Source: Blastococcus sp. CT_GayMR19
Lineage (GTDB): Bacteria > Actinomycetota > Actinomycetes > Mycobacteriales > Geodermatophilaceae
Direction: 5' to 3'
Length of the DNA stretch: 48,572 nucleotides
Assembly (NCBI RefSeq): GCF_004570385.1
Contig: NZ_SPQL01000022.1
Span: 1 to 48,572 of the forward strand
Position numbers and translations under genes: made by a program. Positions 1,735 to 33,687 of this stretch are shown one piece after another; position 1 is the stretch's first letter, and each line of letters starts with the position of its first letter. The notes beneath the pieces are model-generated. The model saw only the letters and a list, made by a program, of their open reading frames with translations, had not been told where the DNA came from and ran no database searches.

Positions 1735-1828
1735 CGTGACGCCGCCGTTCCATTGCGCGGCTGAGTCACGGGGTTGGTTCGCCTTTCCGGTGCTCACGGG
1801 GGTTTCGGGAAAGGTGCAGGTCGTCTTC

Positions 1829-4800: not shown

Positions 4801-7270
4801 GGCGTCCTACGCCTGGGGGCTGTCGACGGCGGTGAAGTGGAACGCGGGGATCACCGCGTTCGCCGGGGTGGATCCGGTCACACCGTTCGACACCGCGGCC
4901 TCCACCGCGTCGAACCTGGGCGCGAACTCGGCCAGCTTGACGGTGCCGGGGGTGACCACCACGAGGACCGGGGCGATGCTGGTCGGCGGGGTGGGGATGA
5001 ACTCCTCGGCGGCGACGGTGACGCCGCCGGCGTCCTGGACGGAGACCTGGGAGGGCACGACCGCCCAGGTCTCGGAGTCCGCCCGGCAGGCGCGGCCGAC
5101 GGCCGGGGCGACCGGGAACGCGACCTGGAACTTCAGCACCGGGGTGATCTCCGCGGGCTGGTTGCGGGCGCTGCGCCCGGCCGCCGGGAGCGAGGAGCCG
5201 CCGCCGGGTCCGTCGGTGCCGGTGTCGTCGTTCACGGCGTCGCCGGAGTCGGGGACGGCGCCGCTGACGGTGGCCTTCACCGACACCTCGTCGGAGGCGC
5301 CGACGTCGTGGGCGTGGGCCTTCGGTGATGGTGGGACGTCGACGGTGCAGAACCCGTCGCACACGTTCGCGGCGGGCACGCACACGGTGACGCTGACCGC
5401 GTCCAACGCGGCGGGTGCGGGGTCGACCGCGACCCGGACGATCACCGTCACGGCGGCTCCGCCGACCGGCGGGACCGGCACGGTGACGGCGGGGTCGTTC
5501 ACCTCGGCGTCGGGGGCGACGGCGGGGACGGCGGTGACGGTGCCCAAGCCGGCCGGAGTGGTGACCGGTGATGTGCTGGTGGCGCAGATCAACGCCGACC
5601 TGAACCCGAACGTGGCGGCGGCGCCGGCGGGCTGGTCGACGGCGATCGCGCCGCGGTCCAGCGGGACCGGGAACCGGTTGTTCGCCTACTACAAGGTGAT
5701 CACGAATGCGTCGGCGGAGCCGGCGTCCTACAGCTGGACGCTGTCGGCGGCGGTGAAGTGGAACGCGGGGATCGCCGACTTCCACGGCGTCGATTCCGCG
5801 AACCCGTGGGATTCCGCGGCGTCGGGGGCGACCGGGGCGGCGGCCACGTCGCTGACGGTGCCGGGGGTGACCACGACCACGGCCGGGGCGATGCTGGTCG
5901 GCGGGGTGGGCTTCAACAGCACCGCCGCGACCGCGACCCCGCCGAGTGGCTGGGTGGAGCTGGGGGAGCCGACCGGCGGGCAGAACACCGAGGTCGCCCG
6001 GCAGGCCCGGCCGACGGCAGGGGCCACCGGGAACGCGGTGTGGACGTTCAGCGGGTCCTACACCTCCACCGGCTGGTTGCGGGCGCTGCGCCCGGCCGCC
6101 GGGAGTGAGGAGCCGCCGCCGGGTCCGTCGGTGCCGGTGTCGTCGTTCACGGCGTCGTCGGAGTCGGGGACGGCGCCGTTGACGGTGGCCTTCACCGACA
6201 CCTCGACCGGGTCTCCGACGTCGTGGGCGTGGGCCTTCGGTGATGGTGGGACGTCGACGGTGCAGAACCCGTCGCACACGTTCGCGGCGGGCACGCACAC
6301 GGTCACGTTGACCGCGTCGAACGCGGCGGGTGCGGGGTCGACCGCGACCCGGACGATCACCGTCACGGCGGCTCCGCCGACCGGGTCGGCGCCGGCGTCG
6401 TCATTCTTGGCGTCGCCGGAGTCGGGGACGGCGCCGCTGGTGGTGTCCTTCACGGACACCTCGACGGGCAGTCCGACGTCGTGGGCGTGGGCCTTCGGTG
6501 ACGGTGGGACGTCGACGGTGCAGAACCCGTCGCACACGTTCGCGGCCGGCACGCACACGGTGACGCTCACGGCGTCGAACGCCTCCGGTGCGGGCACGAC
6601 CGCGTCGCGGACGATCACGGTGACCCCGCCGGCCCCCGGCGGTGGTGGTGGCATCGTGGTGGGCGCCTCGAGCCAGGCCTTGAGCACCACGACGGTGAGC
6701 ACCGTGACCATCCCCACGCCCGCGGGCGTGGTGGCGGGCGACGTGCTGATCGCGCAGATCACCGCGGACGACGCGCCGTCGATCACCACGGTCCCGGCCG
6801 GCTGGTCGACCGTGGTGGATCCGCTGGCGATGGGGACCAGCGCCCGGCTCTTCGTCTACTACAAGGTGGCGGGGGCCTCGGAACCGGCCTCGTACGCATG
6901 GGGGCTGTCCACGCCGGAGAAGTGGAACGCCGCGATGACCGGCTTCCACGGCGTGGACGGTGCGAACCCGTTCGACACCGCAGCCAGTACCAGGGTGAAC
7001 ACCAGCACGGCCACCACCCTGACCGTGCCGGGGGTCACGACGGCGACGGCGGGCGCCCTGCTCGTCGGCGGCGTGGGGGCGAACAACGCCTCCCTCGCGG
7101 TGACGGAGCCGACCGGCTGGACGGAACTGGTGGACGGGCGCGGCGCTCAGGTGACCGAGTCGGCCTACCAGACCCGTCCGGCGGCCGGTGCCACGGGTGA
7201 TGCCACCTGGCAGCTCAGTGCGGCGTACACCTCGGCCGGCTGGCTGCGCGCCATCCGTCCGGCGAGCTGA
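1829..7270 (+). CDS. giant secreted multi-PKD repeat protein
   Basis: A protein of 1813 residues. I chose ATG 1829 because it opens directly on a signal peptide (MRALRQLVLCALV, cleavage near TASAAEG); an upstream GTG at 1736 would put 31 non-signal residues before it. Order: an N-terminal region with propeller-like repeats (about residues 30-435, rich in W and D turns, sialidase-like in feel); PKD1 (440-523); module A1 (525-736); PKD2 (741-821); PKD3 (823-905); A2 (911-1120); PKD4 (1129-1211); A3 (1214-1426); PKD5 (1434-1516); PKD6 (1520-1601); A4 (1608-1813). PKDs carry WAFGDGGTS and NPSHTFAAGTHTVTL. The A modules share AGWS, YYKV, EPASY, KWNAGI, GVD..PFD, LTVPGV and SAGWLRA. There is no LPXTG or C-terminal membrane segment, so it is probably released or loosely attached. 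Likely an adhesin or polymer-binding matrix protein; no enzyme motif recognised. Confidence 0.85.
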   Translation: MRALRQLVLCALVTCSVALGTLAVPATASAAEGDLGYQGPSFGALNNPPTADKPQSKLWFHDGRWWANMWDTTTADWHIFWLNRTNNTWVDTGVRVDERASTSSDALWDGQKLYVASHVVRTGSAASAAGQAARLYRFSYSPTSKTFSLDAGFPTLINDFSSESLTIDKDSTGTIWATWTQVTGTAPDATGTVYVNSTTGTSGAWSTPLVVPTTGGVNPTTAVDDISALVAFQGRIGVLWSNQSDGTVYWSVHSDTAPRTTWTGGIARRGAGEADDHINLKSLQSDQAGRVYAVVKTGLDLLGSSTPSDAQIRLLTFRPGTASWSATTFGTLGDCHTRPQLVLDETNQRVHVIATGPTASGECTASGAGTVYMKSTPMENPSFAPGVGTPIIRDILSDNMNNVTTTKQSVTASSGLVVLASNITTDRYWHADISLGSVPAVPTSSFTSSVTSGQAPLEVAFTDTSTGSPTSWAWDFGDGATSTERNPAHTFTSAGEFTVRLVASNAAGAGTTATGTVTVTAPPAGSGSVTAASSATAVSATAASAVTVGKPAGVATGDVLIAHINVNNAADIGTAPAGWAPVVDPLSVNARATLFAYYKVVSNAANEPASYTWQLSVAETWNAGITAYRGVDTATPFDTAAATASNDVTAAASLTVPGVSTSTNGAMVIGAVGLNNAVTAVNPPTGWTESWESTGAQVAELAHRARPTAGPTGDATWTFGTAVTSAGWVRGLRPAAAVAPPRTPESSFTTSETAGTAPLTVSFTDTSTQSPTSWAWAFGDGGTSTVQNPSHTFAAGTHTVTLTASNAAGAGTPATRTITVSPAPVPVSSFTASPESGTAPLTVAFTDTSSEAPTSWAWAFGDGGTSTVQNPSHTFAAGTHTVTLTASNAAGAGSTATRTITVTAAPPTGGTGTVTAGASSTAVSTAAVTSVSIPRPAGVVAGTVLIAQFTADDGPSVTTVPAGWSAVVAPLSVDARATVFTYYKVTGAAEPASYAWGLSTAVKWNAGITAFAGVDPVTPFDTAASTASNLGANSASLTVPGVTTTRTGAMLVGGVGMNSSAATVTPPASWTETWEGTTAQVSESARQARPTAGATGNATWNFSTGVISAGWLRALRPAAGSEEPPPGPSVPVSSFTASPESGTAPLTVAFTDTSSEAPTSWAWAFGDGGTSTVQNPSHTFAAGTHTVTLTASNAAGAGSTATRTITVTAAPPTGGTGTVTAGSFTSASGATAGTAVTVPKPAGVVTGDVLVAQINADLNPNVAAAPAGWSTAIAPRSSGTGNRLFAYYKVITNASAEPASYSWTLSAAVKWNAGIADFHGVDSANPWDSAASGATGAAATSLTVPGVTTTTAGAMLVGGVGFNSTAATATPPSGWVELGEPTGGQNTEVARQARPTAGATGNAVWTFSGSYTSTGWLRALRPAAGSEEPPPGPSVPVSSFTASSESGTAPLTVAFTDTSTGSPTSWAWAFGDGGTSTVQNPSHTFAAGTHTVTLTASNAAGAGSTATRTITVTAAPPTGSAPASSFLASPESGTAPLVVSFTDTSTGSPTSWAWAFGDGGTSTVQNPSHTFAAGTHTVTLTASNASGAGTTASRTITVTPPAPGGGGGIVVGASSQALSTTTVSTVTIPTPAGVVAGDVLIAQITADDAPSITTVPAGWSTVVDPLAMGTSARLFVYYKVAGASEPASYAWGLSTPEKWNAAMTGFHGVDGANPFDTAASTRVNTSTATTLTVPGVTTATAGALLVGGVGANNASLAVTEPTGWTELVDGRGAQVTESAYQTRPAAGATGDATWQLSAAYTSAGWLRAIRPAS
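3148..7267 (+). repeat. internal PKD and module-A repeat array
   Basis: Six PKD units (~250 bases each) and four module-A units (~630 bases each). The PKD units starting near 4297, 5215 and 6130 are almost identical at the DNA level over about 250 bases, not only in protein. Part of A3 (from about 5809) also matches the first bases of the window almost exactly. This implies recent unit duplication or gene conversion. Confidence 0.85.
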
Positions 7271-7374: not shown

Positions 7375-8535
7375 ATGCCCGCCATGGGAGTTCGCCAGGC
7401 AGGTGGCCGGTCGGGGCGGTGGGTCGGTCGGCCGTCGGTTCCGCGCGCCGTACTGACTCTCTCTGCCGCGGTGGCGCTGGCCGGCTGTTCGGCCGCCGCC
7501 GATCCGGCGGACGGGACCGCCCCGGCGGCGCCCGAGGCGAGCCTCTCGTCCGCGTCCGAGGTCCTGTCCCCGAACGTCGCCGCGCTGGTGGAGACGGATC
7601 CGGTCCCGCACACCGGCGATGCGGCCGACGACCCGGCCGTGTGGGCCAATCCGGCCGATCCGTCCATGAGCGCGATCGTCGGGACCGACAAGCAGGGCGG
7701 GATGCTTGTCTACGACCTGACCGGCCGGCAGCTGCAGTACCTGCCGGTGGGAGAGATGAACAACGTCGACCTCCGGCCGGCTGCGAACGGCTTCACCCTC
7801 GGTGGCAGCCCGGTCGTGCTCGTCGTCTCCGGGAACCGCAGTGACAACACCATCCGGGCGTTCGTCCTGGACCCGGACACCCGTCAACTGCGGGACGTGG
7901 CGGGCGACGCCATCCGCCCGGACCTGGAGGTCTACGGGTCCTGCCTGTACCGGAGCGCCACGACCCGCACGGTGTACGCCTTCGTGAACAGCAAGGAGGG
8001 CGAGGTCGAGCAGTGGAGGCTGTCCGACGACGGTGCGGGCGGGGTCGTGGGCGAACAGGTCCGTTCGTTCCGGGTCGAGTCGCAGGTCGAGGGATGTGTC
8101 GCTGACGACGAGCTGGGCGCCTTCTACCTCGGCGAGGAGACCACGGGGATCTGGAAGTTCGGGGCGGAGCCGGATGCCGGCGACGCCGGAGAACTCATCG
8201 CCCCGGTGACGGAGTCCGGGCCACTCGTCGGCCAGGTCGAAGGGCTCACGCTCGCGTACGGGGACGGGGGAGCGGGATACCTGATCGCCTCGAGCCAGGG
8301 CGACAGCTCGTTCGCCGTCTTCCGGCGGGAGGGCGACAACGGCTACGTCGGCTCCTTCCGGATCGTCCCCGGCGGAGGGATCGACGGCACGGACCATACG
8401 GACGGGATCGATGTCGTGACGGCCGGCCTGGGGCCGTCGTTCCCCTCGGGGGTGCTCGTGGCGCAGGACGGCGAGAACGACGGCGAAGGGCAGAACTTCA
8501 AGCTCGTCCCGCTCGAGGACGTCCTTCCCCGCTGA
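7375..8535 (+). CDS. beta-propeller phytase, lipoprotein
   Basis: A 386-residue protein (or 383 from ATG 7384). A twin-basic N-terminus leads to a hydrophobic stretch ending in the lipobox LAGC with the lipid-bearing Cys at residue 38, so it should be anchored to the outer face of the membrane. The whole mature part is a phytase-type six-bladed propeller: TGDAADDPAVWANP, GTDKQGGMLVYDL, NNVDLRP, EGLTLAYG, SSQGDSSFAVFRREG, VAQDGEND and NFKLVPLE. It parallels the C-terminal domain of the truncated gene at the window start, including the closing NFKLVP stretch, so the two are paralogs flanking the giant adhesin. Role: calcium-dependent release of phosphate from phytate or related phosphoesters. 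Length fits the family (~350-380). Confidence 0.9.
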   Translation: MPAMGVRQAGGRSGRWVGRPSVPRAVLTLSAAVALAGCSAAADPADGTAPAAPEASLSSASEVLSPNVAALVETDPVPHTGDAADDPAVWANPADPSMSAIVGTDKQGGMLVYDLTGRQLQYLPVGEMNNVDLRPAANGFTLGGSPVVLVVSGNRSDNTIRAFVLDPDTRQLRDVAGDAIRPDLEVYGSCLYRSATTRTVYAFVNSKEGEVEQWRLSDDGAGGVVGEQVRSFRVESQVEGCVADDELGAFYLGEETTGIWKFGAEPDAGDAGELIAPVTESGPLVGQVEGLTLAYGDGGAGYLIASSQGDSSFAVFRREGDNGYVGSFRIVPGGGIDGTDHTDGIDVVTAGLGPSFPSGVLVAQDGENDGEGQNFKLVPLEDVLPR

Positions 8536-8565: not shown

Positions 8566-9495
8566 TCAGCGTCTCCGCTCCGGGCCGGCACTGATCACGA
8601 CGTCGTCCATCCACAGGACGTGCGTGGAGTCGGTCGGAGCCCGGTAGATCCCGGCCTTCCAGTAGATGCGTGAACTGGCCATCGTCTGCTGCTCACGCCA
8701 CGGGGCCACCAGCTCCCCGTCGACGTAGGCCGCGGTGCCGCCGTCGTCGCCGTCCTCCGACCAGCGGACGTGCAGGGTGACGTCGAACCATTCCCCCCGC
8801 ATGTCCATGAACTCCTCGGCCGGCACGAGCACGCGGTCTTCCTTGCCGTCCTCCTCGTTGGCCTCGCCTGCGTCGCCACCCGAGGCGAGGACCAGGGCGC
8901 CCTTCCGAGTCACCTGCAAGGACAACGGAGGCGACCCGTCGCCTGCGTGGAACTGCGTGATGATCGTCCAGCGGCCCGGCTCGAAGTCCTCGGCGAGGCG
9001 AAGGCGCTCGTGCACGAACCACTCGTCACCCTCCTCGGCCTGCCACGACGCCGAGTCCTGCGAGACTTCCGAGCGCTCACCCTTGCCCAGGCCACCACCG
9101 GGCGCGTCGCCGGGCCGCACCTCGAACCGGGCCGCCCCGTCGTCCGTGCGGAGGGCATAGGAGTCGTTGTCGTACTTGTTGGCGCGCTTCGCGAAGAAGC
9201 TGTTCTGCACGCGGTGGTACTCGCTCCAGTCGTCGTCGTCGAACGAGTCGGAGAAGAGCACCTTCGAACCGGTGGGCTCCCGCCCGTCCGGCTGCGTGTC
9301 CGGCGTGTCCGGCGTGTCCGGCCCAGATGTGATCACAGCAATGGCCGCGATGGCGGCGACCGCGATCGCGATACCGACGGCTACCACCCGGCGCGTCAGG
9401 GACGGCCGCCCACCCTCTGCCGGCTGTGCCGGTGCAGCGGGGTCGGGATCGACCGCCCGGGTCGTGCCGTCCGGATTGGTGGCTGCTCTCTGCAT
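8566..9495 (-). CDS. membrane-anchored polysaccharide lyase-like protein
   Basis: 309 residues. The N-terminal cytoplasmic part is Pro/Ala rich (1-34), one membrane segment follows (about 35-57, VVAVGIAIAVAAIAAIAVI), then an Asp/Thr/Pro linker and a ~230-residue extracellular domain. That domain has the pattern of jelly-roll lyases of the heparin-lyase-like/PL7-PL20 group: GERSEVSQ, the pair ITQFHAGDG, LSLQVTRKG and YWKAGIYR. By family knowledge the Arg, Gln-x-His and Tyr residues of these motifs line the substrate groove. It would cut an acidic polysaccharide by beta-elimination at the cell surface, possibly the polymer made by the neighbouring genes. Start chosen for the purine-rich AGGCGGAAAG just before ATG 9495. 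It converges on the phytase gene with a 30-base gap. Substrate unknown. Confidence 0.7.
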   Translation of the reverse strand: MQRAATNPDGTTRAVDPDPAAPAQPAEGGRPSLTRRVVAVGIAIAVAAIAAIAVITSGPDTPDTPDTQPDGREPTGSKVLFSDSFDDDDWSEYHRVQNSFFAKRANKYDNDSYALRTDDGAARFEVRPGDAPGGGLGKGERSEVSQDSASWQAEEGDEWFVHERLRLAEDFEPGRWTIITQFHAGDGSPPLSLQVTRKGALVLASGGDAGEANEEDGKEDRVLVPAEEFMDMRGEWFDVTLHVRWSEDGDDGGTAAYVDGELVAPWREQQTMASSRIYWKAGIYRAPTDSTHVLWMDDVVISAGPERRR

Positions 9496-9553: not shown

Positions 9554-10582
9554 TCAGGTCGAGGGCAGGAGCCCCTTGCTCGTGTAGTACTCGATCAGCC
9601 GAGGGTCCTCCAGGAACGGACCATGGAACTGGAAGACGCTCACGTTCGGCAAGTTCCCATTGCCCTCGATGACCTTCACGCCGCGATCCGTGACGGCGAG
9701 GTCCCAGCCGACATGGCTCAGTTCCGGAAAGGCGTCCATCAACTCCAGGGCCAGGCCCCGTACCGCGTCCCAGTCCGGGACGAGTGCGCCGGAGATCTGG
9801 GCGCCGGTGTCCGGATGCCGATCGAACTCCACCCGGCGGCGGGCCCGCGCCCGGCCGACGGCCGTGTCCAGTCGGCCCGTAGCGAGGTCCACCCGGCTGC
9901 ACAGGCCCCCCGAGCTGATGTTGTCGACGGGACCCGTTCCGGCGACGCCCCAGCGGTGGACCGCCGCGGCGAGCACCGGCCCGTGTTTCGGCAGACGGAC
10001 GCCGAGGACCCGCACCGTGTTCAGGGAGCCGGGGTAGATGCGCGCCAGCTCCGGGTGCTGGACGACGCGCTCCTGCACCAGCAGGTCCGTGCCGGCCGAG
10101 GCCACCATGTTCTCCACGTCGACCGGGGATGCCAGGCGCACACCGTCCCCACCCCGGCCTCTCGTGGGCTTCAGCACCACCGTGGTCTGGCGGCGGAGGC
10201 GCTCGGCGGCGTCCGGTGAACGAACCTGCAGTCCCTCGGCGGTCACCGTCCCGTAGACCTCGGGAGCGCAGGAACCCAGGCCCCGGGCTGCGAGCAGGTC
10301 TGCGAAGAGGCTCTTCTGCTCGACGAGGGCGCGAGCCGATGGTGCGTTCAGCTCACCGCTCCGGAACTGGATGCGCACATCGTTGATGAAGACGGCGGAG
10401 CGGTCCGTGATCCCCGGGTAGGTGTAGATCCGGTTGGACAGGAAGCCGCGGCGCCACATCGAGGGGTGCAGCGCCCCGGGGTAGTACTGGCGCTCCAGGC
10501 GGACGAGACCGGCGGCCGTTCGGACGTTCCGCCTCAGTTGCTTGGCGACGGCGATGGGACGCAGATTGCTGTGGATCAGCAT
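9554..10582 (-). CDS. sugar-transfer-associated ATP-grasp protein (copy 1, last of three)
   Basis: 342 residues, matching the sugar-transfer-associated ATP-grasp family in size and motifs. N-terminal stretch HPSMWRRGFLSNRIYTYP, then an ATP-grasp core: VVLKPTRGRGGDGV (nucleotide-binding glycine-rich loop with Lys), LLVQERV, LNTVRVLGVRL, HRWG, VDNISSGGL, HVGWDLAVTDRG, VIEGNGNLP (metal-binding Glu/Asn). The family joins a carboxylate to an amine with ATP and is found in polysaccharide operons; its exact substrate is unknown. It starts inside the end of the gene upstream through a 7-base overlap (ATGCTGA), implying translational coupling. The three copies are clearly diverged paralogs, so they probably have different substrates. 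Confidence 0.85.
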   Translation of the reverse strand: MLIHSNLRPIAVAKQLRRNVRTAAGLVRLERQYYPGALHPSMWRRGFLSNRIYTYPGITDRSAVFINDVRIQFRSGELNAPSARALVEQKSLFADLLAARGLGSCAPEVYGTVTAEGLQVRSPDAAERLRRQTTVVLKPTRGRGGDGVRLASPVDVENMVASAGTDLLVQERVVQHPELARIYPGSLNTVRVLGVRLPKHGPVLAAAVHRWGVAGTGPVDNISSGGLCSRVDLATGRLDTAVGRARARRRVEFDRHPDTGAQISGALVPDWDAVRGLALELMDAFPELSHVGWDLAVTDRGVKVIEGNGNLPNVSVFQFHGPFLEDPRLIEYYTSKGLLPST

Positions 10583-11640
10583 CGCGGTCCGGTCGAGACT
10601 CCGCCGACGCGTGGTCGGGCTGACGGCAGCAGACCCTTGTTCGTGTAGTAGTCACGCAGCGCGGGGTCGTCCAGGAACGAGCCGTGCACCTGCATGGCGG
10701 GTACGGCCGGTCTGGTTCCGTTCCCTTCGATCACCCGTGGCCCTTGGTCGCTCACGGCCAGGTCCCACCCGACGTGCTCGAGCTCCGGGAAGGATTCCAT
10801 CAAGTTCAGGGTCAGATCCCGGACAGCCGACCAGTGCGGAACGAGAACACCCGTGATCTGCGCGTCGGTGTCGGGGTGGCGGTCGAACTCCACCCGGCGG
10901 CCGTCCTGGGTCAACCGGATCGCCGGGCCCAGCCGGCCGGTCGCGAGATCCACGACGCTTTCGAGGCCGCCGGCGCTGACATTGTCGACAGCACCGCTCC
11001 GGGTCGTGCCCCATTTGTGCGTAGCCACGGCAAGCACCGGGCCGGTGGGCGGGCGAACGGCGAGCACGCGGAGGGTGTTCAGGGCCAGGGGGTTGATCCG
11101 GAGGAGTGCCGGGTGCTGGGTCACCCGCTCCTGCACCAGCAGTGCCGTGCCGAAACGGGGGACCATGGCCTCGACCTCGGCCGGAGAGACGATGCGCACG
11201 CCTGTTCCGCCCCGGCCGGTAGTCGGCTTCAGGACCACCGCCGTCTGTTTCATGAGGCGCTCGTGCGCGGCGGCGGAACGAACCAGGAGTCCCTCGGCCG
11301 AGACGATCCCGTACACCTCCGGGGCGTACGTCCCGAGTCCGCGGGCCGTGAGCGCGTCCGCGAACACGTTCTTGTCATCGAGCAGGACCCGAGCCCATGG
11401 CGGGTTCAGCGACGAGAAGTGCATCAGGAACCGCAGGTCGCTGACGAGGGGGACGGACGGGTTCTCGATGTCAGGGAACGAGTAGAGGCGGCTGGACACG
11501 AAGCCGCGGCGCCACATCGAGGGGTGGGGTCTCCCAGGCCAGCTCTCGCGCTCCATGCGTATCAGACGGGTCGCCGTCCGGACGTTCCGCCTCACTTGCT
11601 TGGCGACGGCGACGGGACGCAGATTGGCGGGGATCAGCAT
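10576..11640 (-). CDS. sugar-transfer-associated ATP-grasp protein (copy 2)
   Basis: 354 residues from ATG 11640. The frame stays open to 11892, but the extension would overlap the previous gene by 250 bases and has no family resemblance, so I rejected it. The ATG sits in the same ATGCTGA overlap with the upstream stop that joins copies 2 and 1. Motifs: HPSMWRRGFVSSRLYSFP, VVLKPTTGRGGTGV, LLVQERVTQHP, LNTLRVLAVRP, HKWGTTRSG, VDNVSAGGLE, HVGWDLAVSDQG, VIEGNGTRP. It is more similar to copy 3 than to copy 1 (shared EVYGI, DGRRVEFDRHPDTDAQITGV). Same inferred reaction type, an ATP-dependent ligation during surface polymer assembly. Confidence 0.85.
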   Translation of the reverse strand: MLIPANLRPVAVAKQVRRNVRTATRLIRMERESWPGRPHPSMWRRGFVSSRLYSFPDIENPSVPLVSDLRFLMHFSSLNPPWARVLLDDKNVFADALTARGLGTYAPEVYGIVSAEGLLVRSAAAHERLMKQTAVVLKPTTGRGGTGVRIVSPAEVEAMVPRFGTALLVQERVTQHPALLRINPLALNTLRVLAVRPPTGPVLAVATHKWGTTRSGAVDNVSAGGLESVVDLATGRLGPAIRLTQDGRRVEFDRHPDTDAQITGVLVPHWSAVRDLTLNLMESFPELEHVGWDLAVSDQGPRVIEGNGTRPAVPAMQVHGSFLDDPALRDYYTNKGLLPSARPRVGGVSTGPRC

Positions 11641-12698
11641 CGCGGTCCGGTCGGGACTCCGCCGAGGGGTTGCCGGGACGGGGGCAGCAGCCCCTTGCTC
11701 TCGTAGTAGTCGCGTAGCCCCGGATCGTGCAGGAACGAGCCGAACACCTGCATGAAGACAAGGGCCGGCTTGCCTGCATTCCCCTCGATCACGAGTGGTC
11801 CCCGCTCGGTCACAGCCACGTCCCACCCGATGTGGTCCAGCTCCGGGAAGGAGGACATCAGCCGCTCGGTCAGCTCCCGGACAGCCGACCACTGCGGCAC
11901 GAGAACACCGGTGATCTGCGCGTCGGTGTCCGGGTGACGGTCGAACTCCACCCGGCGGCCGTCCCGAGTCAGCGTGAGCGCCGGCCCCAGCCGGCCGGTC
12001 GCGAGATCGACGCCGCTGGCGAGGCCGCCGGAGTCGATGTTGTCGACCACACCGCTCTCGGCGGTGCCCCAGCGGTGCATCCCCACGGCGAGCACCGGGC
12101 CGGCGGGCAGGCGAACAGCGAGCAGGCGGAGGGTGTTCAGCGACCGGGGGTTTATCTGGCTGATAGCCGGGTGCTGGGTCACCCGCTCCTGCACCAGCAG
12201 TGCCGTTTCGAATCCGGCCGTCATCGCCTCGACCTCTGACGGTGCGGCGAGGCGTACACCCTTGCCGCGCGTGCCCCGAATCGGTTTGAGCATCACGCCG
12301 TCCTGGTTCCGAAGGCGCTCGAGGGCGTCGGAGGAACGAGCGTGGAAGCCCTTGGCGGTGACGATCCCGTACACCTCAGGGGCGTACGGGCCGAGGCCGC
12401 GGGCCGTGAGCGCGTCCGCAAACACGTTCTTGTCCTGGAGCAGGGGCCGCGTCCAGTCCGGGTTCAGCTTCGACACGTGGAACTGGAAACGCAAGTCGCT
12501 GACGTAGGGGACGGACGGATCCTCGATGTCGGGGAAGGAGTTGATCCGGCTGGACAGAAAACCCCGCCGCCACATCGAGGGGTGCCGGCACTCGGGCCAG
12601 CTTGCCCGTTCGTCACGCACCAGAAGGGCCAGCGTCCGGGCGTTCCGCCTGACGCGCTTGGCGATGGCGATCGGACGCAGGTTTCCGGGAACCGGCAT
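11634..12698 (-). CDS. sugar-transfer-associated ATP-grasp protein (copy 3, first of three)
   Basis: 354 residues. Motifs as in its two neighbours: HPSMWRRGFLSSRINSFP, VMLKPIRGTRGKGV, LLVQERVTQHP, LNTLRLLAVRLP, HRWGTAESG, VDNIDSGGLAS, HIGWDVAVTERG, VIEGNAGKP. Copies 1 and 2 have EGNG in the last motif where this copy has EGNA, a change next to the metal-binding Glu/Asn pair. Its start lies 5 bases after the stop of the ABC exporter, so the four genes form one transcript in the order exporter, copy 3, copy 2, copy 1. The C-terminal tail (GGVPTGPRC) resembles that of copy 2 (GGVSTGPRC), as expected from tandem duplication. Confidence 0.85.
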   Translation of the reverse strand: MPVPGNLRPIAIAKRVRRNARTLALLVRDERASWPECRHPSMWRRGFLSSRINSFPDIEDPSVPYVSDLRFQFHVSKLNPDWTRPLLQDKNVFADALTARGLGPYAPEVYGIVTAKGFHARSSDALERLRNQDGVMLKPIRGTRGKGVRLAAPSEVEAMTAGFETALLVQERVTQHPAISQINPRSLNTLRLLAVRLPAGPVLAVGMHRWGTAESGVVDNIDSGGLASGVDLATGRLGPALTLTRDGRRVEFDRHPDTDAQITGVLVPQWSAVRELTERLMSSFPELDHIGWDVAVTERGPLVIEGNAGKPALVFMQVFGSFLHDPGLRDYYESKGLLPPSRQPLGGVPTGPRC

Positions 12699-12703
12699 CG
12701 CGG

Positions 12704-14587
12704 CTATCTCGCAGCCTGACGGAGCGTGATGTCGCTGACCTCGCGGAAGAAGTCGTTGCCCTCGAGCAGGGCCCCGGGCTCGTCGATGGCCTGCAGGCGG
12801 CCGTCGACGATGACCATCACGCGGTCACAGATGGACAGGGTGGACAGCCGGTGGGCCACCAGGAAGAGCAGCACGTCCTCCTTGACCTCGGCGAGCGACT
12901 CCTGCACGGCCTGCTCGGACCGCACGTCCAGCGCGCTCGTGGGTTCGTCGAGAATGAGGACGTCGGGGTTCCCGGCGAGGGCCCGGGCCAGACACAGCCG
13001 CTGGCGCTGGCCGCCGGACACTGCGGAGGCGCGGGGCCCGACCACGGTCCGGTAGCCCTCCGGCCAGGACAGGATCTCGTCGTGGATGTGCGCCCGGCGG
13101 GCGGCCTGCTCCACCTCGGCGTCGCTGATCTCCGGGCGGTAGAAGCGGATGTTCTCCGCGACGGTGCCCCAGATGAGCTGCGGCGACTGGGGCACATAGG
13201 AGATGCGCCGCTGCCAGTCCGCGCGCACGAACGCCGTCGCATCCTGGCCGTTGACCTCCAGCGCCCCGCGCGTGGGCTCGCGCAACCGGAGCATGAGCTG
13301 GACGAGGGAAGACTTGCCGGCTCCCGACGGTCCGACGATGCCGATGGCCTCGCCCCTGCGCGCCTCGAACGACACGCCCCGCAGCACCGTTCTGTCGGCC
13401 TCGTAGGCGAAGTGCACGTCCGACATCCCCAGACGCTCGACGCGGCCCAGTGGCTGGGCTCCGTCGACCTGGGGATGAGCGGCGTACTCCTCCAGCGCCT
13501 CGCTGAGCCTTGTCATGTAGGGGATGAGCTCGTTCAGGCCGGTCGTGGCCGTCTGGATCTGCTGGCCGTAGGTCAGGGAGCGGATGAGGATCAGCACGAC
13601 CGCCGCCAGCGATGCGATGGCCGTGGCGCCCGAGAAGTACACGACCGCCAGCGCGAGGATGAGGAGCAGGAACGCCATGCTCTGGTACAGGCCCGGTACG
13701 GCCCGGGTGAGGAACCGGGTCTGCTGGAGGGGACGGCGCACGTGCTGGATGAGCTGGTCCACCTGGCTCCGGTAGGCCTCCGAAGCTCCGAAGACCTGGA
13801 TCTCCTCCGCCATCTGGACGATCTCGTGCACTCCCTTGGAGAACTCCTCGTTCTCTGCGACGAGTTCCCGGACGTGCTTCCTCAGGCGGCGCGACAGGGG
13901 CGCAAGGAGCAGGAAGAGCCCCACGGACGCGGAGATGAGCACCAGTGCCGTCGTCACGCTGAGGAAGAAGGCGGACGCGAGCAGGGTGAGGAACATCAGG
14001 ACGGCGGTGATCCCCGCAGACAGACGGGTGATCGCCAGTGACGCGTGGCTCACATGCGTGGCCATCAGCGACTGGAAGTAGCCGTCCCGCTCCGCGGCCT
14101 GGACCGACCACGACGTGCGGGTGAACCGCTCGAAGAGAACCCGACGCAGATGGGCCATGACCTGGGCGCTCATCACGGCGGGCAGGTGGGCGAGCCAGAC
14201 CTGCAGCGCCGCGCGCACCAGCGCGAGCGCGCTGCCGACCAGGAACAGGGTCCGGAGGGAGGCGGTGGCCTCGACCGGGCCCGGGACGGCGTCGACGACC
14301 GACACACCCTGGGAGAGGGCGCTGGCGAGCGTGGCCACGAGTGCCAGCAGCGCGGCCTCCAGGAGCCCGGCGAGCACGGAGCCGCCGGCGAGGAGCAGGA
14401 GCCGCCGGGGCGATGCGCCGAGGAATGGCCAGAACTGCTTCCACCTGATGCCGGTTTCCCGGAGGGCGCGCAGGCGAGACGCCGGGACCGGCCCAGGGGA
14501 CAACGACTCTCTCCTCGCAGACGTCGGGAGCGGCGTGCGCCGGCACCCGAGATGGCCACCGTACCTGGGCCTGAGCGGGATACTCAT
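12704..14587 (-). CDS. ABC exporter, fused membrane and ATPase domains
   Basis: 627 residues, the usual length of a half-transporter that works as a dimer. The membrane domain (about 45-395) has six hydrophobic segments. The nucleotide-binding domain (about 400-627) has Walker A GPSGAGKSS near residue 420, Q-loop YVPQSPQLIWG, signature VSGGQRQRLCLARAL near 524, Walker B VLILDEPTSALD near 545 and switch His in VAHRLST near 578; all key residues are present. Type: exporter of the MsbA/HlyB-like class without a peptidase domain. First gene of the operon with three ATP-grasp proteins, so its cargo is probably the product or intermediate they modify. The first ~40 residues are Arg/Pro rich and of unclear role; ATG 14587 is only 42 bases from the divergent TupA-like frame. 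Confidence 0.88.
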   Translation of the reverse strand: MSIPLRPRYGGHLGCRRTPLPTSARRESLSPGPVPASRLRALRETGIRWKQFWPFLGASPRRLLLLAGGSVLAGLLEAALLALVATLASALSQGVSVVDAVPGPVEATASLRTLFLVGSALALVRAALQVWLAHLPAVMSAQVMAHLRRVLFERFTRTSWSVQAAERDGYFQSLMATHVSHASLAITRLSAGITAVLMFLTLLASAFFLSVTTALVLISASVGLFLLLAPLSRRLRKHVRELVAENEEFSKGVHEIVQMAEEIQVFGASEAYRSQVDQLIQHVRRPLQQTRFLTRAVPGLYQSMAFLLLILALAVVYFSGATAIASLAAVVLILIRSLTYGQQIQTATTGLNELIPYMTRLSEALEEYAAHPQVDGAQPLGRVERLGMSDVHFAYEADRTVLRGVSFEARRGEAIGIVGPSGAGKSSLVQLMLRLREPTRGALEVNGQDATAFVRADWQRRISYVPQSPQLIWGTVAENIRFYRPEISDAEVEQAARRAHIHDEILSWPEGYRTVVGPRASAVSGGQRQRLCLARALAGNPDVLILDEPTSALDVRSEQAVQESLAEVKEDVLLFLVAHRLSTLSICDRVMVIVDGRLQAIDEPGALLEGNDFFREVSDITLRQAAR

Positions 14588-14628
14588 GGGAATGTCACCC
14601 GTTAGAAGAGCCCGCCCGCGGCTATCTC

Positions 14629-15591
14629 TTGCTGTGGCGCGCCCGTGATGATGTGGTGGCGCCCGTGGTTGTCCCCTCCCGGTACCGGCCGTTGATGCGC
14701 GCCATTCCGGTGCCGGCGCGCCAGTTCCTGCGGTTCCGCCGGGCGCACGGCCGGATGCCGCCGATGCGTCGACCCCTGACGTTCAACGAGAAGATCCACT
14801 GGCGGCTGCGGTACGACCGTCGGCCCCTGCTGGCCGACACCTGCGACAAGCTGGCCATGAAGGAGCACGCCCGGCTGATCGCCCCCGGTCTCGTACGGAT
14901 CCCGGAGACCCTGTGGTCCGGTGTGGACGTCGCGGAACTCGCCTCCGTGGACCTGCCCGCGCACTGGGTGCTGAAGCCCAACGACGCGAGCGGACTCGTG
15001 CTGTTCGGCAACGGTGCGGCCGAACCCGAGGACCTGGCCGCCCGGACGCAGAGCTGGCTGCACCGGAAGGACCGGCGTCAGCACGAGGAGTGGGCCTACC
15101 GGCACGCGCGCCCGGGGCTCCTCGTGGAGGAGTTCATCGGGACCCCGGGGGAGGTCCCGGCCGATCTCAAGGTCCTCGTCTTCGACGGCATCCCACGCAT
15201 CGTCGGCGTGCACACGAGCCGCGACACCGTCCACCGCAATCGGCTGTACACGCCCGACTGGGAGCCTCTGCCGTGGACGGGGGGCTACGCCCGCGGGCCG
15301 GACGCGCCACGCCCTGAGCGTCTCGAGGACATGCTCAAGGCGGCATCGGCTCTGGCCGCCGGTTTCGACATGCTGCGCGTGGACTTCTACGAGCACGAAG
15401 GAGTGCTCTGGTTCGGTGAGCTGACGCCGTACCCCGGGGGCGGCATGACCCGGATCGAACCGGAACTCGACGCCCTCCAGGGTCACTGGTGGAAGCTGCC
15501 CCCGGTGGGACCTCGCTGGCCGCGCCTGCCGGTGGCCCTCCGCGCGGCGCTCGCTCGCCCCCGGACCGACGAGGCCGATCCCGCCGTCTGA
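14629..15591 (+). CDS. TupA-like ATP-grasp protein
   Basis: Up to 320 residues. Possible starts are TTG 14629, GTG 14653 or ATG 14695 (298 residues); none has a clear ribosome site, and the conserved part begins after ATG 14695, so the start is open. Recognised by PLTFNEKIHWRLRYDRRP, CDKLAMKEH, HWVLKPNDASG (nucleotide-binding Lys), LLVEEFIG, DLKVLVFDG, MLRVDFYEHEG and FGELTPYPGGG (metal-binding acids). This is the TupA-like ATP-grasp family named after a Bacillus teichuronopeptide gene, thought to link amino acids to a cell-wall polymer. It diverges from the ABC exporter/ATP-grasp operon with a gap of about 40-110 bases, so the promoters are shared or overlapping. Confidence 0.82.
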   Translation: MLWRARDDVVAPVVVPSRYRPLMRAIPVPARQFLRFRRAHGRMPPMRRPLTFNEKIHWRLRYDRRPLLADTCDKLAMKEHARLIAPGLVRIPETLWSGVDVAELASVDLPAHWVLKPNDASGLVLFGNGAAEPEDLAARTQSWLHRKDRRQHEEWAYRHARPGLLVEEFIGTPGEVPADLKVLVFDGIPRIVGVHTSRDTVHRNRLYTPDWEPLPWTGGYARGPDAPRPERLEDMLKAASALAAGFDMLRVDFYEHEGVLWFGELTPYPGGGMTRIEPELDALQGHWWKLPPVGPRWPRLPVALRAALARPRTDEADPAV

Positions 15592-15854: not shown

Positions 15855-17153
15855 GTGCCTCGTCATCGCCCTGAGACCGCCCCGACCGCCGCCCGGTCCC
15901 GCGCTCATCTCTCTCTGTTCAGCCGGTCCGTCAGCCGGCTCCTGGCCGCCCTGCTCGTCCTCGTGGGGCTGTATTCAGCCCTGCAGGAGCCGGGTGTGGC
16001 GGGCTTCCAGCCGTCCAGCTCGGCGGGGGCCGTCGGCCCCTCCGAGGTGCCCACGGACGACGAGGACGAAGAGGACGCCGACGACGGCGACGAGGGCCGG
16101 GCGCAGAGTGTGGGCGCAGCGGCACGCGCCGGCGCCCGGTCCGACGGCATCGCCGCGGCGGAGCAGGCAGCCGCGGAGGCCACCGAGGCCACCGAGGCTG
16201 CGGCGGTCGCGGCGGAGGCCAGCGCCTCAACGGCTGAGGCGGCCCCCGCCACCGGCCCGTCGCCGACGCCCCCGAGTGCGGCACTGCCGGCCACCAGGAG
16301 GTCGGGTGCCTCCGGTGCCCTCAGCTGGGCGCCGCCCGCGGGCCACGCCAGTTTCCCCGTCAAGAAGGTCAGCGGAGCGGGCGGCCTCAACACCGTGGAC
16401 GCCGGCGGCGGCGACGTGACCATCCAGCTGTCCTCCACGGGAGCGGTCGGGCCGATCGTCATCAAGAACTGCCGGAACGCCGTCCTCATCGGTGGCCAGA
16501 TCGACGTCGCGGCGACAGCCCAGCTCGGCGGCTCGGACCAGCGGGCCATCTACATCAACAGCTGCACCGGCGTCGTCCACATCGAGGGCGTGCTGATCAA
16601 CGGGGCCGTGAACGGCTCCGAGGCCGACGGGATCGCCGTCAACGCGCCGAAGGCGGTCGTCCAGATCCAGAACGTCCGGGTCGAGGGCATGCAGGGCGGG
16701 AAGAGCGGTAACCACGCCGACGTCTTCCAGCCCTGGGGCGGGGTGCGCGAGTACCGCATCGACCGGCTGACCGGCTCGACGAACTACCAGGGGCTGCACG
16801 TGGGGGTCGACCTCGGTCCCATCGGACGCGGAACGGTCTTCAACGCGAACATCGCCAGCTCCGAGTCCGGGACCGTGGACAAGGGGGGCCAGTTCATCTG
16901 GCTGGACTGCAACGCCTACCCGCTGACGCTGGACAACGTCTACATCGCCGGCCGGTCGGGTCGTTCGTTCGGCACGAGCGTCTGGCCGCAGCCGGACACC
17001 TCTGGTTGCCCGGCGACGATCAGCGCCGGGGTGGCCTCCTGGCCCGGTTACACCTCGCTGACCGGCAGCGTCCGCGACGGGCGCCCCCCGTCCGGCGACT
17101 TCGTCCCGGCCGGTTCCGTGGGGCTCGGCTACGCGTCGCCCGGCTACCTCTGA
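15855..17153 (+). CDS. secreted right-handed beta-helix protein
   Basis: 432 residues from GTG 15855. A basic N-terminus precedes a membrane/signal segment (about 27-45, LLAALLVLVGLY), then an acidic patch (DDEDEEDADDGDEG), an Ala/Glu-rich helix-forming stretch (about 88-130) and a Pro/Ser linker. The C-terminal ~260 residues have short repeated beta-strand units (IVIKNCRNAVLIGGQ, IYINSCTGVVHIEGV, VQIQNVRVEGM, TLDNVYIAG) typical of parallel beta-helix proteins of the pectate-lyase superfamily, with HADVFQPWGG as in carbohydrate-active members. It may bind or cleave a polysaccharide; no certain catalytic residues. No ribosome site is seen and a -10-like hexamer ends 6 bases upstream, so it may be leaderless. 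Confidence 0.75.
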   Translation: MPRHRPETAPTAARSRAHLSLFSRSVSRLLAALLVLVGLYSALQEPGVAGFQPSSSAGAVGPSEVPTDDEDEEDADDGDEGRAQSVGAAARAGARSDGIAAAEQAAAEATEATEAAAVAAEASASTAEAAPATGPSPTPPSAALPATRRSGASGALSWAPPAGHASFPVKKVSGAGGLNTVDAGGGDVTIQLSSTGAVGPIVIKNCRNAVLIGGQIDVAATAQLGGSDQRAIYINSCTGVVHIEGVLINGAVNGSEADGIAVNAPKAVVQIQNVRVEGMQGGKSGNHADVFQPWGGVREYRIDRLTGSTNYQGLHVGVDLGPIGRGTVFNANIASSESGTVDKGGQFIWLDCNAYPLTLDNVYIAGRSGRSFGTSVWPQPDTSGCPATISAGVASWPGYTSLTGSVRDGRPPSGDFVPAGSVGLGYASPGYL

Positions 17154-17177: not shown

Positions 17178-17212
17178 GCGGGGGTCCGGCTCAGTACGCG
17201 CCGGACCCCCGC
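17178..17212. terminator. bidirectional terminator hairpin overlapping a stop codon
   Basis: Perfect 12-base stem (17178-17189 with 17201-17212) and an 11-base loop. The loop holds the stop codon of the minus-strand transferase gene (17191-17193), and the right arm is the last codons of that gene. It sits in the 37-base gap between convergent genes and can serve both. Confidence 0.7.
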
Positions 17213-18702
17213 ATGACCGCGCCCAGAGTCCTCCACAGGATCAGCAGGTCGAAGGTGAGCGACCAGTTCTCCACGTACCTGATGTCGATCCGGACCGACT
17301 CGTCCCAGGACAGGTCCGAGCGCCCACTGATCTGCCACAGGCCGGTGAGACCGGGCTTCACCAGGAAGCGGCGGTGCATGTCCACGCCGTAGCGGTCCAC
17401 CTCCGACGGCAGAGGCGGCCGCGGGCCGACCAGCGACATCGTCCCCGCCAGGACGTTGAGCAGTTGGGGCAGCTCGTCGAGTGAGCTGCGGCGAAGGACA
17501 GCGCCGACGCGGGTGATGCGCGGATCGGCCTTCTTCTTGAACAGGACACCGTTGCCGTCGTTCTCCCCGGCGAGCATGTCCAGCATCTGATCGGCACCGG
17601 CGACCATGGTGCGGAACTTGAACATCCGGAAGGTCCGGCCCCGGTGGCCGACCCGCTCCTGCCGGAAGAGGACGGAGCCCGGCGTCGTGACCTTCACCAG
17701 CACCGCGATGCCCAGGAGCAGCGGCGCGAGCAGGAGGATGCCGAACGCTGCGGCACTGCGGTCGAACAGGCCCTTGATGACCCTCCGCACGCCGCGCAGT
17801 TCCGGTCGCTCCACGTGCAACACGGAGAGACCGCAGACGGGCCGGATCTGGACCCGAGGTCCGACGATCTCGGTCACCGCAGGCACCAGGAGCAGCGCGG
17901 CCGAGGTCTTCTCAAGCTCCCACGCCAGCCGGCGCAGCGCCGTCCCGTCGAGCTGCGGTGAGGGCAGGACGGCGACGGTGTCCACGTCGTGGCGACGCAC
18001 CGCGCCGAGCACCCCGTCGAGGTCCCCGAGCACCGGGAGTCCGCCCAGCGACGAGGCGGCGGCGCCCCCGGAGGTTGGCAGGCAGCAGCCGATCACGTCG
18101 TAGCCTTGCTGCGGCTGGCGTTGGATCTGCCGGTTGAGCGCTTCCACACCGCTGCGATGGCCGACCAGCAACGTCCGGCGCAGGCACTTGCCCTGCTGGC
18201 GCTGGCGGGTCAGGCGCTGTCGCCAGGCGTACCGCTGCGCCAGGGTCAGGAGGGTGGCCAGTGGCAGCGCGACGACGACGAATCCCCGGGCCACCTCCAA
18301 CTGGACGGCCCAGGACACCGTCCCCACCGTGGCGAGCAGGAACCCGGAGGCGAGGAAGACGCGGCGGAACTCCTCAGGGCCGTCCCAGAGAAAGCGTTCC
18401 TCGTAGGTCCGTGCGACGACCATGGCGAATGCCCAGACCACCGGAAGGGCGATCGCCATGGACAACGAGGCAGGAGTCGCCGCGGACCTCTCCGGACCGA
18501 AGCGGACGGCGGCGCCGGCCATGGCGGCGAGCACCGCACAGCTGACGTCCGAGACGAAGATCCGGCGGATGTAGGTGCGCCGCCATTGGCGACGCCGGAG
18601 CGAACCGACCTCGCGCAGAGCGTGGTCTACGAGCAGCGGACCTTCCGGTCGTCTGCGCGCGGGAAATTCGAGTGCGACATCGGAGTACTTGACTTGGGTC
18701 AT
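17191..18702 (-). CDS. polyprenyl-phosphate glycosyl-1-phosphate transferase
   Basis: 503 residues from ATG 18702, which has AAGGAC 7 bases upstream; the open frame reaches 18744. Four N-terminal membrane segments (about 45-160), a Rossmann-like cytoplasmic domain ([12 protein letters not shown]), a fifth membrane segment ([17 protein letters not shown]) and the bacterial sugar-transferase domain: [68 protein letters not shown]. These are the conserved catalytic stretches of the WcaJ/CpsE/WbaP class. It moves a sugar-1-phosphate from an NDP-sugar to undecaprenyl phosphate, the first step of a capsule or exopolysaccharide repeat unit. A shortened second copy lies at 24931-25902. The repeat protein upstream is on the same strand, 138 bases away. 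The sugar donor is unknown. Confidence 0.9.
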
Positions 18703-18840
18703 CTGACTGTCCTTGACGATCATGCGGCGAATGCGCGCGCACAAGACGGGACGAGCGACTGGGAGGCCAGGTGCAGGGCGGGGCGGTCGGGCGTGCGGCG
18801 GGGCGCCGGGGACAGACGTCCGGACGCGCGCCCGCGCCGC

Positions 18841-20391: not shown

Positions 20392-23119
<2,728 letters not shown>

Positions 23120-33571: not shown

Positions 33572-33687
33572 CGGAGGCGGTCAAACGAGACAGACGTCAT
33601 GACGACTCGCCGGGTCGGACGGGGCTCCAGGAAACACGGCGCAGGGACGATTGAGTCGGTCCCGCCCCCGTTCCGCCGGAGTCCCGC

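Follow-up and report, generated by a model that had tools for sequence, protein, structure and literature searches.

The window analysed here comprises positions 1–48,572 of contig NZ_SPQL01000022.1 of Blastococcus sp. CT_GayMR19, and its 9554–15591 region carries five genes. Four of them lie on the minus strand: an ABC exporter gene with membrane and ATPase parts in a single chain (12704–14587; PF00005 7.5e-33, PF00664 1.8e-8) and three tandem genes for predicted PF14397 ATP-grasp ligases, namely ST1, the first in the triplet (11634–12698; 1.8e-43, 149.2 bits), ST2 (10576–11640; 4.3e-38, 131.5 bits) and ST3 (9554–10582; 3.1e-39, 135.3 bits). The fifth gene, located on the plus strand, diverges from the ABC gene and encodes a predicted TupA-like ATP-grasp amidoligase (14629–15591; PF14305 3.4e-26, 92.7 bits). 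The Pfam matches of all five genes exceeded the curated cut-offs, which are 31.4 bits for PF14397 and 25 bits for PF14305. The mechanically called ORF of ST2 extends to 11892, and an ATG agreeing with the paralogs was found at 11640; the start codon of the TupA-like gene is a TTG at 14629, with an ATG available at 14695. ST1 and ST2 overlap by 7 bp, as do ST2 and ST3, the gap between ST1 and the ABC gene is 5 bp, and the divergent starts of the ABC and TupA-like genes are 41 bp apart. Both the five-gene layout and the near-zero spacing along the minus strand, described in an earlier note made from the sequence alone, were borne out by the Pfam matches and coordinates.

A probable secreted or anchored polysaccharide lyase is encoded on the minus strand at 8566–9495 (PF14099 1.9e-30, PF08787 6.7e-7; hydrophobic segment at residues 37–55), its gene beginning 58 bp downstream of ST3. 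The position of this PF14099 lyase beside ST3 hints at a uronic acid polymer; no match of the lyase was found among the PDB sequences. The earlier note had overlooked this gene directly downstream of the cluster, as well as the QueC-like partner gene of the relatives described below. On the other side, the plus-strand gene at 15855–17153 encodes a protein with a hydrophobic segment near its N end (working label BHelix, unproved), which had no match in Pfam, NCBIfam or PDB sequences, and homologues of which adjoin the Modestobacter clusters L012–L015. It is followed by a minus-strand gene for a polyprenyl-phosphate sugar phosphotransferase, an initiating enzyme of EPS synthesis (17191–18744; TIGR03025 413.6 bits, cut-off 295.55; PF02397 6.2e-65), and by two plus-strand genes, an rmlB-like nucleotide-sugar dehydratase gene starting with ATG (21279–22274; PF16363 9.5e-69 inside ORF 20481–22274) and an rmlD-like gene starting with GTG (22271–23119; PF04321 4.3e-68 inside ORF 22217–23119). 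The rmlB-like gene is a possible candidate for sugar supply to the cluster. A Pfam scan of 27 ORFs of the window recognised no Wzx, Wzy or glycosyltransferase. Several ATP-grasp genes with an exporter are also the outline of graspetide-type RiPP clusters, where ATP-grasp ligases cross-link a ribosomal precursor and an ABC transporter exports it. We consider such a system very improbable here, as the minus-strand genes are separated by 58 bp, 5 bp or overlap, so that no space is left between them for a separate precursor gene, and the relatives show a polysaccharide context. The RiPP reading was consequently set aside, the absence of an intergenic gap longer than 58 bp referring to the gaps between those minus-strand genes.

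Five residues (K138, R191, D293, E305, and N307 in ST1 numbering), which we take from general ATP-grasp knowledge to be the ATP and metal residues, were invariant across ST1–ST3 and in all 11 rows of alignment A2, and the ATP-grasp motifs appear intact across the ligases of the cluster, as the earlier note had read them. The structure prediction that it had proposed was run for ST1. Apart from residues 36–59, which were poorly modelled, the model has the fold of ATP-grasp carboxylate–amine ligases and was closest to ArgX/LysX, RimK, and Ddl (10–24% identity among the matches listed). The known members of these families carry out carboxylate–amine ligation and share the overall fold with ST1, but they act on other substrates. 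No solved relative of ST1 was matched among the PDB sequences, and the accession PF14397 was mentioned nowhere in the open-access literature searched.

The three paralogs are 70% (ST1/ST2), 60% (ST1/ST3), and 63% (ST2/ST3) identical, and ST1 and ST2 are sisters in the tree. Since dN/dS was below 1 in every pair (NG86: 0.54 for ST1/ST2, 0.44 for ST1/ST3, 0.42 for ST2/ST3; YN00: 0.26 for ST1/ST2), the sequences suggest that selection keeps the three copies. They may nevertheless be redundant or dosage copies that share one reaction and one polymer and add a single residue, a real possibility to which we give somewhat less than an even chance. The sister relationship and identity of ST1 and ST2 and the low dN/dS ratios agree with redundancy, as do the relatives, which get by with one close PF14397 copy, and the C. 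jejuni HS:2 locus, for which the part of PMC11800379 drawn on here describes two 87% identical glycosyltransferases of the same activity. However, the 60–63% identity of ST3 to the other two exceeds the divergence expected of recent dosage copies. In the loop after EGN, which was picked for comparison once the alignment had been inspected, ST1 and ST3 were the least alike of 307 windows (1/307 that low), whereas the loop was ordinary in most comparisons, with 39 windows as low for ST1–ST2, 47 for ST2–ST3, 55 for ST2–L009 and 169 for ST1–L009. The loop thus gives a weak and mixed hint of differing residue specificity among ST1–ST3.

The exporter carries the Walker A, signature, Walker B, and H-loop motifs. 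It is HepA/MsbA/CydD-like, with all NCBIfam family scores below cut-off (the best being HepA_fam, 261 bits vs. a cut-off of 725). TupA is associated with the teichuronopeptide of alkaliphilic Bacillus, its suggested product being amino acids or a peptide on an acidic polysaccharide. The cluster has the TupA family in common with that system, but neither a PF14397 triplet nor such an exporter nor a QueC-like partner, as in the relatives, is known to us to belong to teichuronopeptide. The TupA-like protein of the window gave chance-level matches only among the PDB sequences. According to the portion of PMC11800379 used here, the C-terminal TupA-like domain of C. jejuni Cj1438 was shown to amidate glucuronic acid in the HS:2 capsule. 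The window protein shares with it the TupA-like ATP-grasp domain, the setting in a polysaccharide cluster and an expected carboxylate–amine ligation; however, the Cj1438 domain is fused C-terminally to a GT2 glycosyltransferase and works with phosphorylated amines and a separate phosphatase, whereas the window protein is a standalone 320-aa polypeptide with PF14305 as sole domain, no GT2 fusion, and the ABC exporter and PF14397 ligases adjoining.

The linkage of these genes was followed in relatives. In the whole-genome searches the best first-look candidates were scored (for the exporter, the best 11 of 81–153 in the searches shown), and a narrow scan of genome contigs yielded 4 loci out of 55 pattern matches. 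The exporter was found in 7 of the 112 genomes of the same family; the TupA orthologue diverged from the ABC gene in all seven, and PF14397 genes lay alongside in six. TupA-like genes were present in 44 of the 112 genomes, only seven of these having the exporter. The co-occurrence proposed in the earlier note therefore holds within the family for the exporter, TupA, and PF14397, but most TupA genes occur without the exporter. At five such exporter-less TupA loci (L017–L021), PF14397 and QueC-like homologues were not found and ABC ATPase matches were weak only. In the 15 other genomes of the genus, neither the ST profile nor TupA nor the exporter was matched, and nothing exceeded the PF14397 cut-off. 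Three close PF14397 copies in a row, which the earlier note had called unusual, were present in one of the 112 family genomes, and the other five genomes with the close type had a single close copy each, to which four added one divergent copy. In the rest of the class, TupA occurred in three of the 17 genomes with PF14397, within 11 kb of it in two.

In Modestobacter, the module sits amid Wzx, Wzz, and glycosyltransferase genes; in the distant actinobacterium G319, TupA, a QueC-like gene, and PF14397 lie within a Wzy-type cluster; and a Bacteroidales contig carries a capsule-type cluster with two PF14397 genes and TupA. The scanned module flanks in G022 encoded a TPP enzyme, rhodanese and lactamase-fold proteins, an AraC regulator, a GPP34 protein, and a phosphatase-like protein, and no polysaccharide genes. 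Since its relatives are mostly surrounded by sugar-polymer genes, the probable role of the cluster is to attach amines or amino acids to a surface polysaccharide. The polysaccharide amidation or peptidylation put forward in the earlier note is partly supported, by the context in Modestobacter, G319, and Bacteroidales, the ligase fold, and the glucuronate amidation by Cj1438, while the G022 flanks do not fit it. Alternatively, the product of the ligases could be a small molecule (a peptide, amide metabolite or osmolyte) that the ABC protein exports, the polysaccharide genes being mere neighbours. The presence of the exporter within the operon, the peptide exporters among its listed family scores, the G022 neighbours, and a Haloplanus plasmid on which a PF14397 gene lies ~6 kb from a YcaO/TOMM set of RiPP type would agree with this. 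We regard it as unlikely, as the ligases of G319 and L010 lie inside polysaccharide clusters, in which stretches no exporter homologue was found, and those of Modestobacter accompany Wzx and Wzz.

A QueC-related gene, absent from the window cluster, adjoined TupA or PF14397 at all 13 of its places in the family, and appears to encode a predicted amide-forming enzyme of a third type, which accompanies the cluster in relatives. The numbers of PF14397 and QueC-like copies per cluster were 3/0 in the window and 1/3, 2/1, and 0/1 in other genomes. This association of QueC-like genes with TupA and PF14397 and the swapping ligase copy numbers are new here. The section of PMC13329287 on these enzymes gives SGGxDS (P-loop) and C(x)8CxxCxxC (zinc) as QueC family motifs and names WbpG-type sugar amidotransferases. 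The P-loop of the partner reads TGGWDS in nine of ten rows and TSGWDS in one, where the family form is SGGxDS, and the cysteine spacing was exact in nine of ten, L023 having C(x)9. PF06508 (cut-off 22 bits) was mostly missed narrowly (21.7–21.8 bits in L016, 20.5 bits in L023) and was passed, with 31.1 bits, only by the over-long L011 ORF spanning two QueC-like copies; seven of the ten members matched it at E ≤ 0.01. Among the PDB sequences, the QueC-like profile matched QueC (3bl5, E 4.3e-4; 2pg3, E 0.001). Compared with the QueC family, Cap9, and QatC as treated in the relevant parts of PMC13329287 and PMC13279940, the partner has a variant P-loop and, in most rows, the QueC cysteine spacing; its neighbours are TupA, PF14397, and EPS genes, a context not described in that section of PMC13329287, the main text of which does not mention ATP-grasp, polysaccharide, capsule, glycosyltransferase, Actinobacter or cell wall. 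Likewise, the parts of PMC11888242 and PMC12419801 consulted describe no such QueC/ATP-grasp/polysaccharide cluster. No 7-deazaguanine genes were found among the scanned neighbours. A role as a defence gene was also considered and rejected: of two QueC-like proteins submitted to PADLOC, one matched QueC weakly (E 0.0096) and the other not at all. Because the QueC-like profile was found in only two genomes (G000 and G319) among 388 of the class and, in the genus of G319, in 1 of 237 (G319 itself), the combination is rare and perhaps laterally moved; the QueC-like protein had no match among plasmids. For a second PF14397/QueC-like pair in G000 (C26), no homologue of the window or Modestobacter query proteins was found within ~29 kb on each side (L030, L022, L031), and no polysaccharide family was recognised among five proteins scanned around it.

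Considering these results, we find it probable that the enzymes of the cluster form amide linkages on a polysaccharide of the cell surface, the best reading being amide decoration of a uronic-acid polysaccharide. For the chemistry, substrates, and step order, we infer the following scheme. The TupA-like and the three PF14397 enzymes would each activate a carboxylate with ATP, and the resulting acyl phosphate would then be joined to an amine. The first acceptor, that of TupA by analogy with the Cj1438 domain, would most likely be a uronic acid, at its C6 carboxylate, within a lipid-linked repeat unit or growing chain. Subsequently or in parallel, the PF14397 enzymes may add amino acids or amines, since their predicted fold is nearest to that of ArgX/LysX, RimK, and Ddl, ligases in which an amino acid is coupled to a carboxyl group. 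The decorated glycan or lipid-linked unit would leave the cytoplasm either via the ABC exporter or via a flippase of the Wzx type, and the flanking lyase probably trims the polymer. As regards the exporter cargo, no exporter homologue was found in the G319 stretch, and Modestobacter also has a Wzx flippase.

More tentatively, and with considerable doubt, the genes could be seen as a modular glycan-amidation kit with a TupA core, in the family often joined by the exporter, and a variable set of two unrelated ligase types, PF14397 ATP-grasp and QueC-derived PP-loop enzymes, that differ in copy number from genome to genome. Every copy would contribute an amine or amino acid of its own, so that the amide side chains on one kind of exopolysaccharide would be strain-specific. 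If this held, the QueC fold would, to our knowledge, be newly used on glycans, beside the WbpG-type enzymes. Amine and amino acid decorations affect how bacterial polysaccharides are charged, bind water, and are recognised, and few of the enzymes have been characterised. The cluster offers a small testable set, with three adjacent paralogs, relatives that have one or two copies, and an enzyme related to QueC that trades places with them. Should the copies act on different substrates, they would show how ligase duplication varies polymer chemistry in bacteria.

Pfam and ORF searches confirmed the five genes placed at 9554-15591 by the earlier note, namely an ABC exporter on the minus strand, then, co-oriented with it and transcribed in this order, the three tandem PF14397 ATP-grasp genes ST1, ST2 and ST3, as well as a TupA-like PF14305 ATP-grasp gene diverging from the exporter. 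The spacing is tight (5 bp from the end of the exporter to the start of ST1, with neighbouring ST genes overlapping by 7 bp), and the ATP/metal and exporter motifs checked in the cluster proteins are intact. The cargo of the exporter was not readable from sequence, as the HepA, MsbA-related and CydD models score similarly, all well under their cut-offs. A polysaccharide lyase gene (PF14099), whose product has one hydrophobic segment, lies 58 bp after ST3, and an exopolysaccharide initiating transferase is encoded at 17191-18744. Lyases of this kind cleave uronic acid chains, thus the downstream gene fits a uronic acid polymer. Elsewhere in the window, which is the entire 48,572-base contig C17 of the source genome (G000), a pair of phytase-family PF02333 genes (57-1553 and 7375-8535) flanks an ORF of 1844 aa that contains six PKD stretches (1736-7270), whose place is overlain by a 1510-aa ORF on the opposite strand; a phytase homologue was also detected near the cluster of G131. 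A 561-aa putative minus-strand ORF without Pfam family runs across short-repeat DNA at 18841-20526, and two DUF4032 proteins with weak Kdo-kinase-like matches are encoded in tandem at 32339-34914.

Among 112 genomes of the family, taken to be that of Modestobacter (Geodermatophilaceae), the ST profile (E 1e-15) was found in six (G000, G022, G031, G116, G120, and G132) and the exporter (E 1e-140) in the same six and G131. TupA diverges from the exporter in all seven exporter-bearing genomes, so the conserved linkage expected of such a system was indeed observed, and the TupA proteins of the six relatives are 60-64% identical to that of the window. TupA itself is not tied to the exporter, since TupA-like genes are commoner (44/112 vs. 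7/112). Five TupA loci (L017-L021) from the other 37 genomes yielded neither a PF14397 nor a QueC-like homologue, and ABC ATPase matches there were weak only and confined to three loci. The 15 other sampled genomes of the genus gave no ST-profile, TupA or exporter match, and no PF14397 above its cut-off. In a class sample of 394 genomes, PF14397 (E 1e-12) occurred in 18 and PF14305 in 15; after removal of G000 the figures were 17/393 and 14/393, with both families in 3/393 (approximately 0.6 expected if independent). The two genes lie 1.0 kb apart in G319, approximately 10 kb apart in G341 and on separate contigs in G483. As only these three of the 17 PF14397 genomes have both, PF14397 genes in the class mostly lie away from TupA.

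The clusters of relatives contain a further gene, a QueC-related PP-loop gene located between the ATP-grasp genes in Modestobacter and after the single ST gene in G022, where three tandem copies directly follow it (L011, 12338-14712). The family search detected it at 13 places in 10/112 genomes, each no more than approximately 1.6 kb from PF14397 or TupA and 10 of them within 100 bp. The copy of G000 lies outside the window, on contig C26, where it adjoins another, divergent PF14397 gene (L022 9157-11082, C26 89156-91081), and no EPS gene was recognised near this pair. Ten aligned members carry the P-loop TGGWDS (nine) or TSGWDS (one) and the cysteines C(x)8CxxCxxC (nine; C(x)9 in one), while the canonical QueC motifs are SGGxDS and C(x)8CxxCxxC (PMC13329287). 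As PF06508 scores are mostly just below the cut-off and a profile run against PDB sequences reached QueC at E 4e-4, the partner is termed QueC-related here and is not classed as QueC. The QueC homologue Cap9 is described as coupling a carboxylate to the N-terminal glycine of a protein (PMC13279940), which makes an amide ligase role plausible for the partner, a third ligase candidate.

The best evidence for a role in polysaccharide making comes from two clusters far from the window's family. In G319, which belongs to a different family of the same class, a single run comprises a Wzz protein with kinase-like domain, an unassigned ORF, an initiating transferase, two GT2 genes, TupA, a QueC-like gene and PF14397; next to it lie a Wzy_C protein and a flippase-like gene (26.7 bits, under the cut-off of 28.2). 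On a Bacteroidales contig, PF14397 (a 210-aa ORF), PGA_cap, PF14397, and TupA share one cluster with three glycosyltransferases, a hexapeptide transferase and an initiating transferase. Similar genes surround the Modestobacter locus L013, with a glycosyltransferase, Wzx-type flippase, pyruvyltransferase, hexapeptide transferase, acyltransferase 3 and GT28-C on one flank, and Wzz, an esterase and a 496-aa protein without family, which we infer to be a Wzy candidate, on the other; most were recognised by homology in L012, L014, L015, and L016. Proteins without Pfam family also recur beside such clusters (L012 17058-19729 and window 15855-17153). Seven flanking proteins scanned in G022 besides the QueC-like ORF included no polysaccharide genes; among them were a TPP enzyme, an AraC regulator, a GPP34 protein, an exo/endonuclease-phosphatase protein and two rhodanese-domain proteins, one lactamase-like as well. 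Seven plasmid records matched ST1, and four regions were inspected: PF14397 adjoins a flippase, with an O-antigen ligase near, in Natrononativus, lies approximately 6 kb from a flippase in Rhizobium, and is represented in Haloplanus by a PF14397-type gene approximately 6 kb from YcaO, SagB-type dehydrogenase and TOMM leader-binding genes (L037 8932-18361); the Ensifer region carries no annotation.

The in-cluster PF14397/QueC-like counts are 3/0 in G000, 1/3 in G022, 0/1 in G131 and 2/1 in each of G031, G116, G120, and G132. Such a swap would be expected for a kit of ligases adding different groups, although duplication without new function would produce the same pattern. The paralogs share 70% (ST1/ST2), 63% (ST2/ST3) and 60% (ST1/ST3) identity, with NG86 dN/dS values of 0.54, 0.42 and 0.44, respectively (YN00 gave 0.26 for ST1/ST2). 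A tree of 22 rows pairs ST1 with ST2 as sisters (100/99), and ST3 joins them weakly (84/89), adjoining the single G022 copy (86/89), so the gene was probably triplicated within the lineage. Likeness was compared in 307 sliding 14-residue windows over residues 21-340, with the segment picked post hoc from the alignment. At residues 308-321, just past the catalytic EGN, ST1 and ST3 are 21% identical vs. 60% overall, the lowest likeness (1/307 windows as low). The segment is ordinary against Modestobacter L009 for ST1 (50%; 169/307 as low or lower), ST3 (57%; 183/307) and ST2 (55/307), and for ST1-ST2 (39/307) and ST2-ST3 (47/307). In D-Ala ligases the corresponding stretch touches the acceptor, and the divergence weakly hints that acceptor choice has changed.

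The earlier note had proposed that the cluster amidates or peptidylates a polysaccharide before export, each paralog adding a different residue. The TupA-like domain of Cj1438 is reported to use serinol phosphate or ethanolamine phosphate to amidate glucuronic acid at its C6 carboxylate, a step that precedes addition of the next sugar (PMC11800379). By analogy, TupA would amidate a uronic acid in the cytoplasm prior to export, and additional amines or amino acids would be attached by the PF14397 enzymes. The general idea is already known, because an older proposal assigned successive ligations to multi-ATP-grasp operons and named teichuronopeptides and O-antigen (PMC4431377). Within the open-licence literature searched, the PF14397 triplet, its pairing with the exporter and the QueC-related partner appear to be new.
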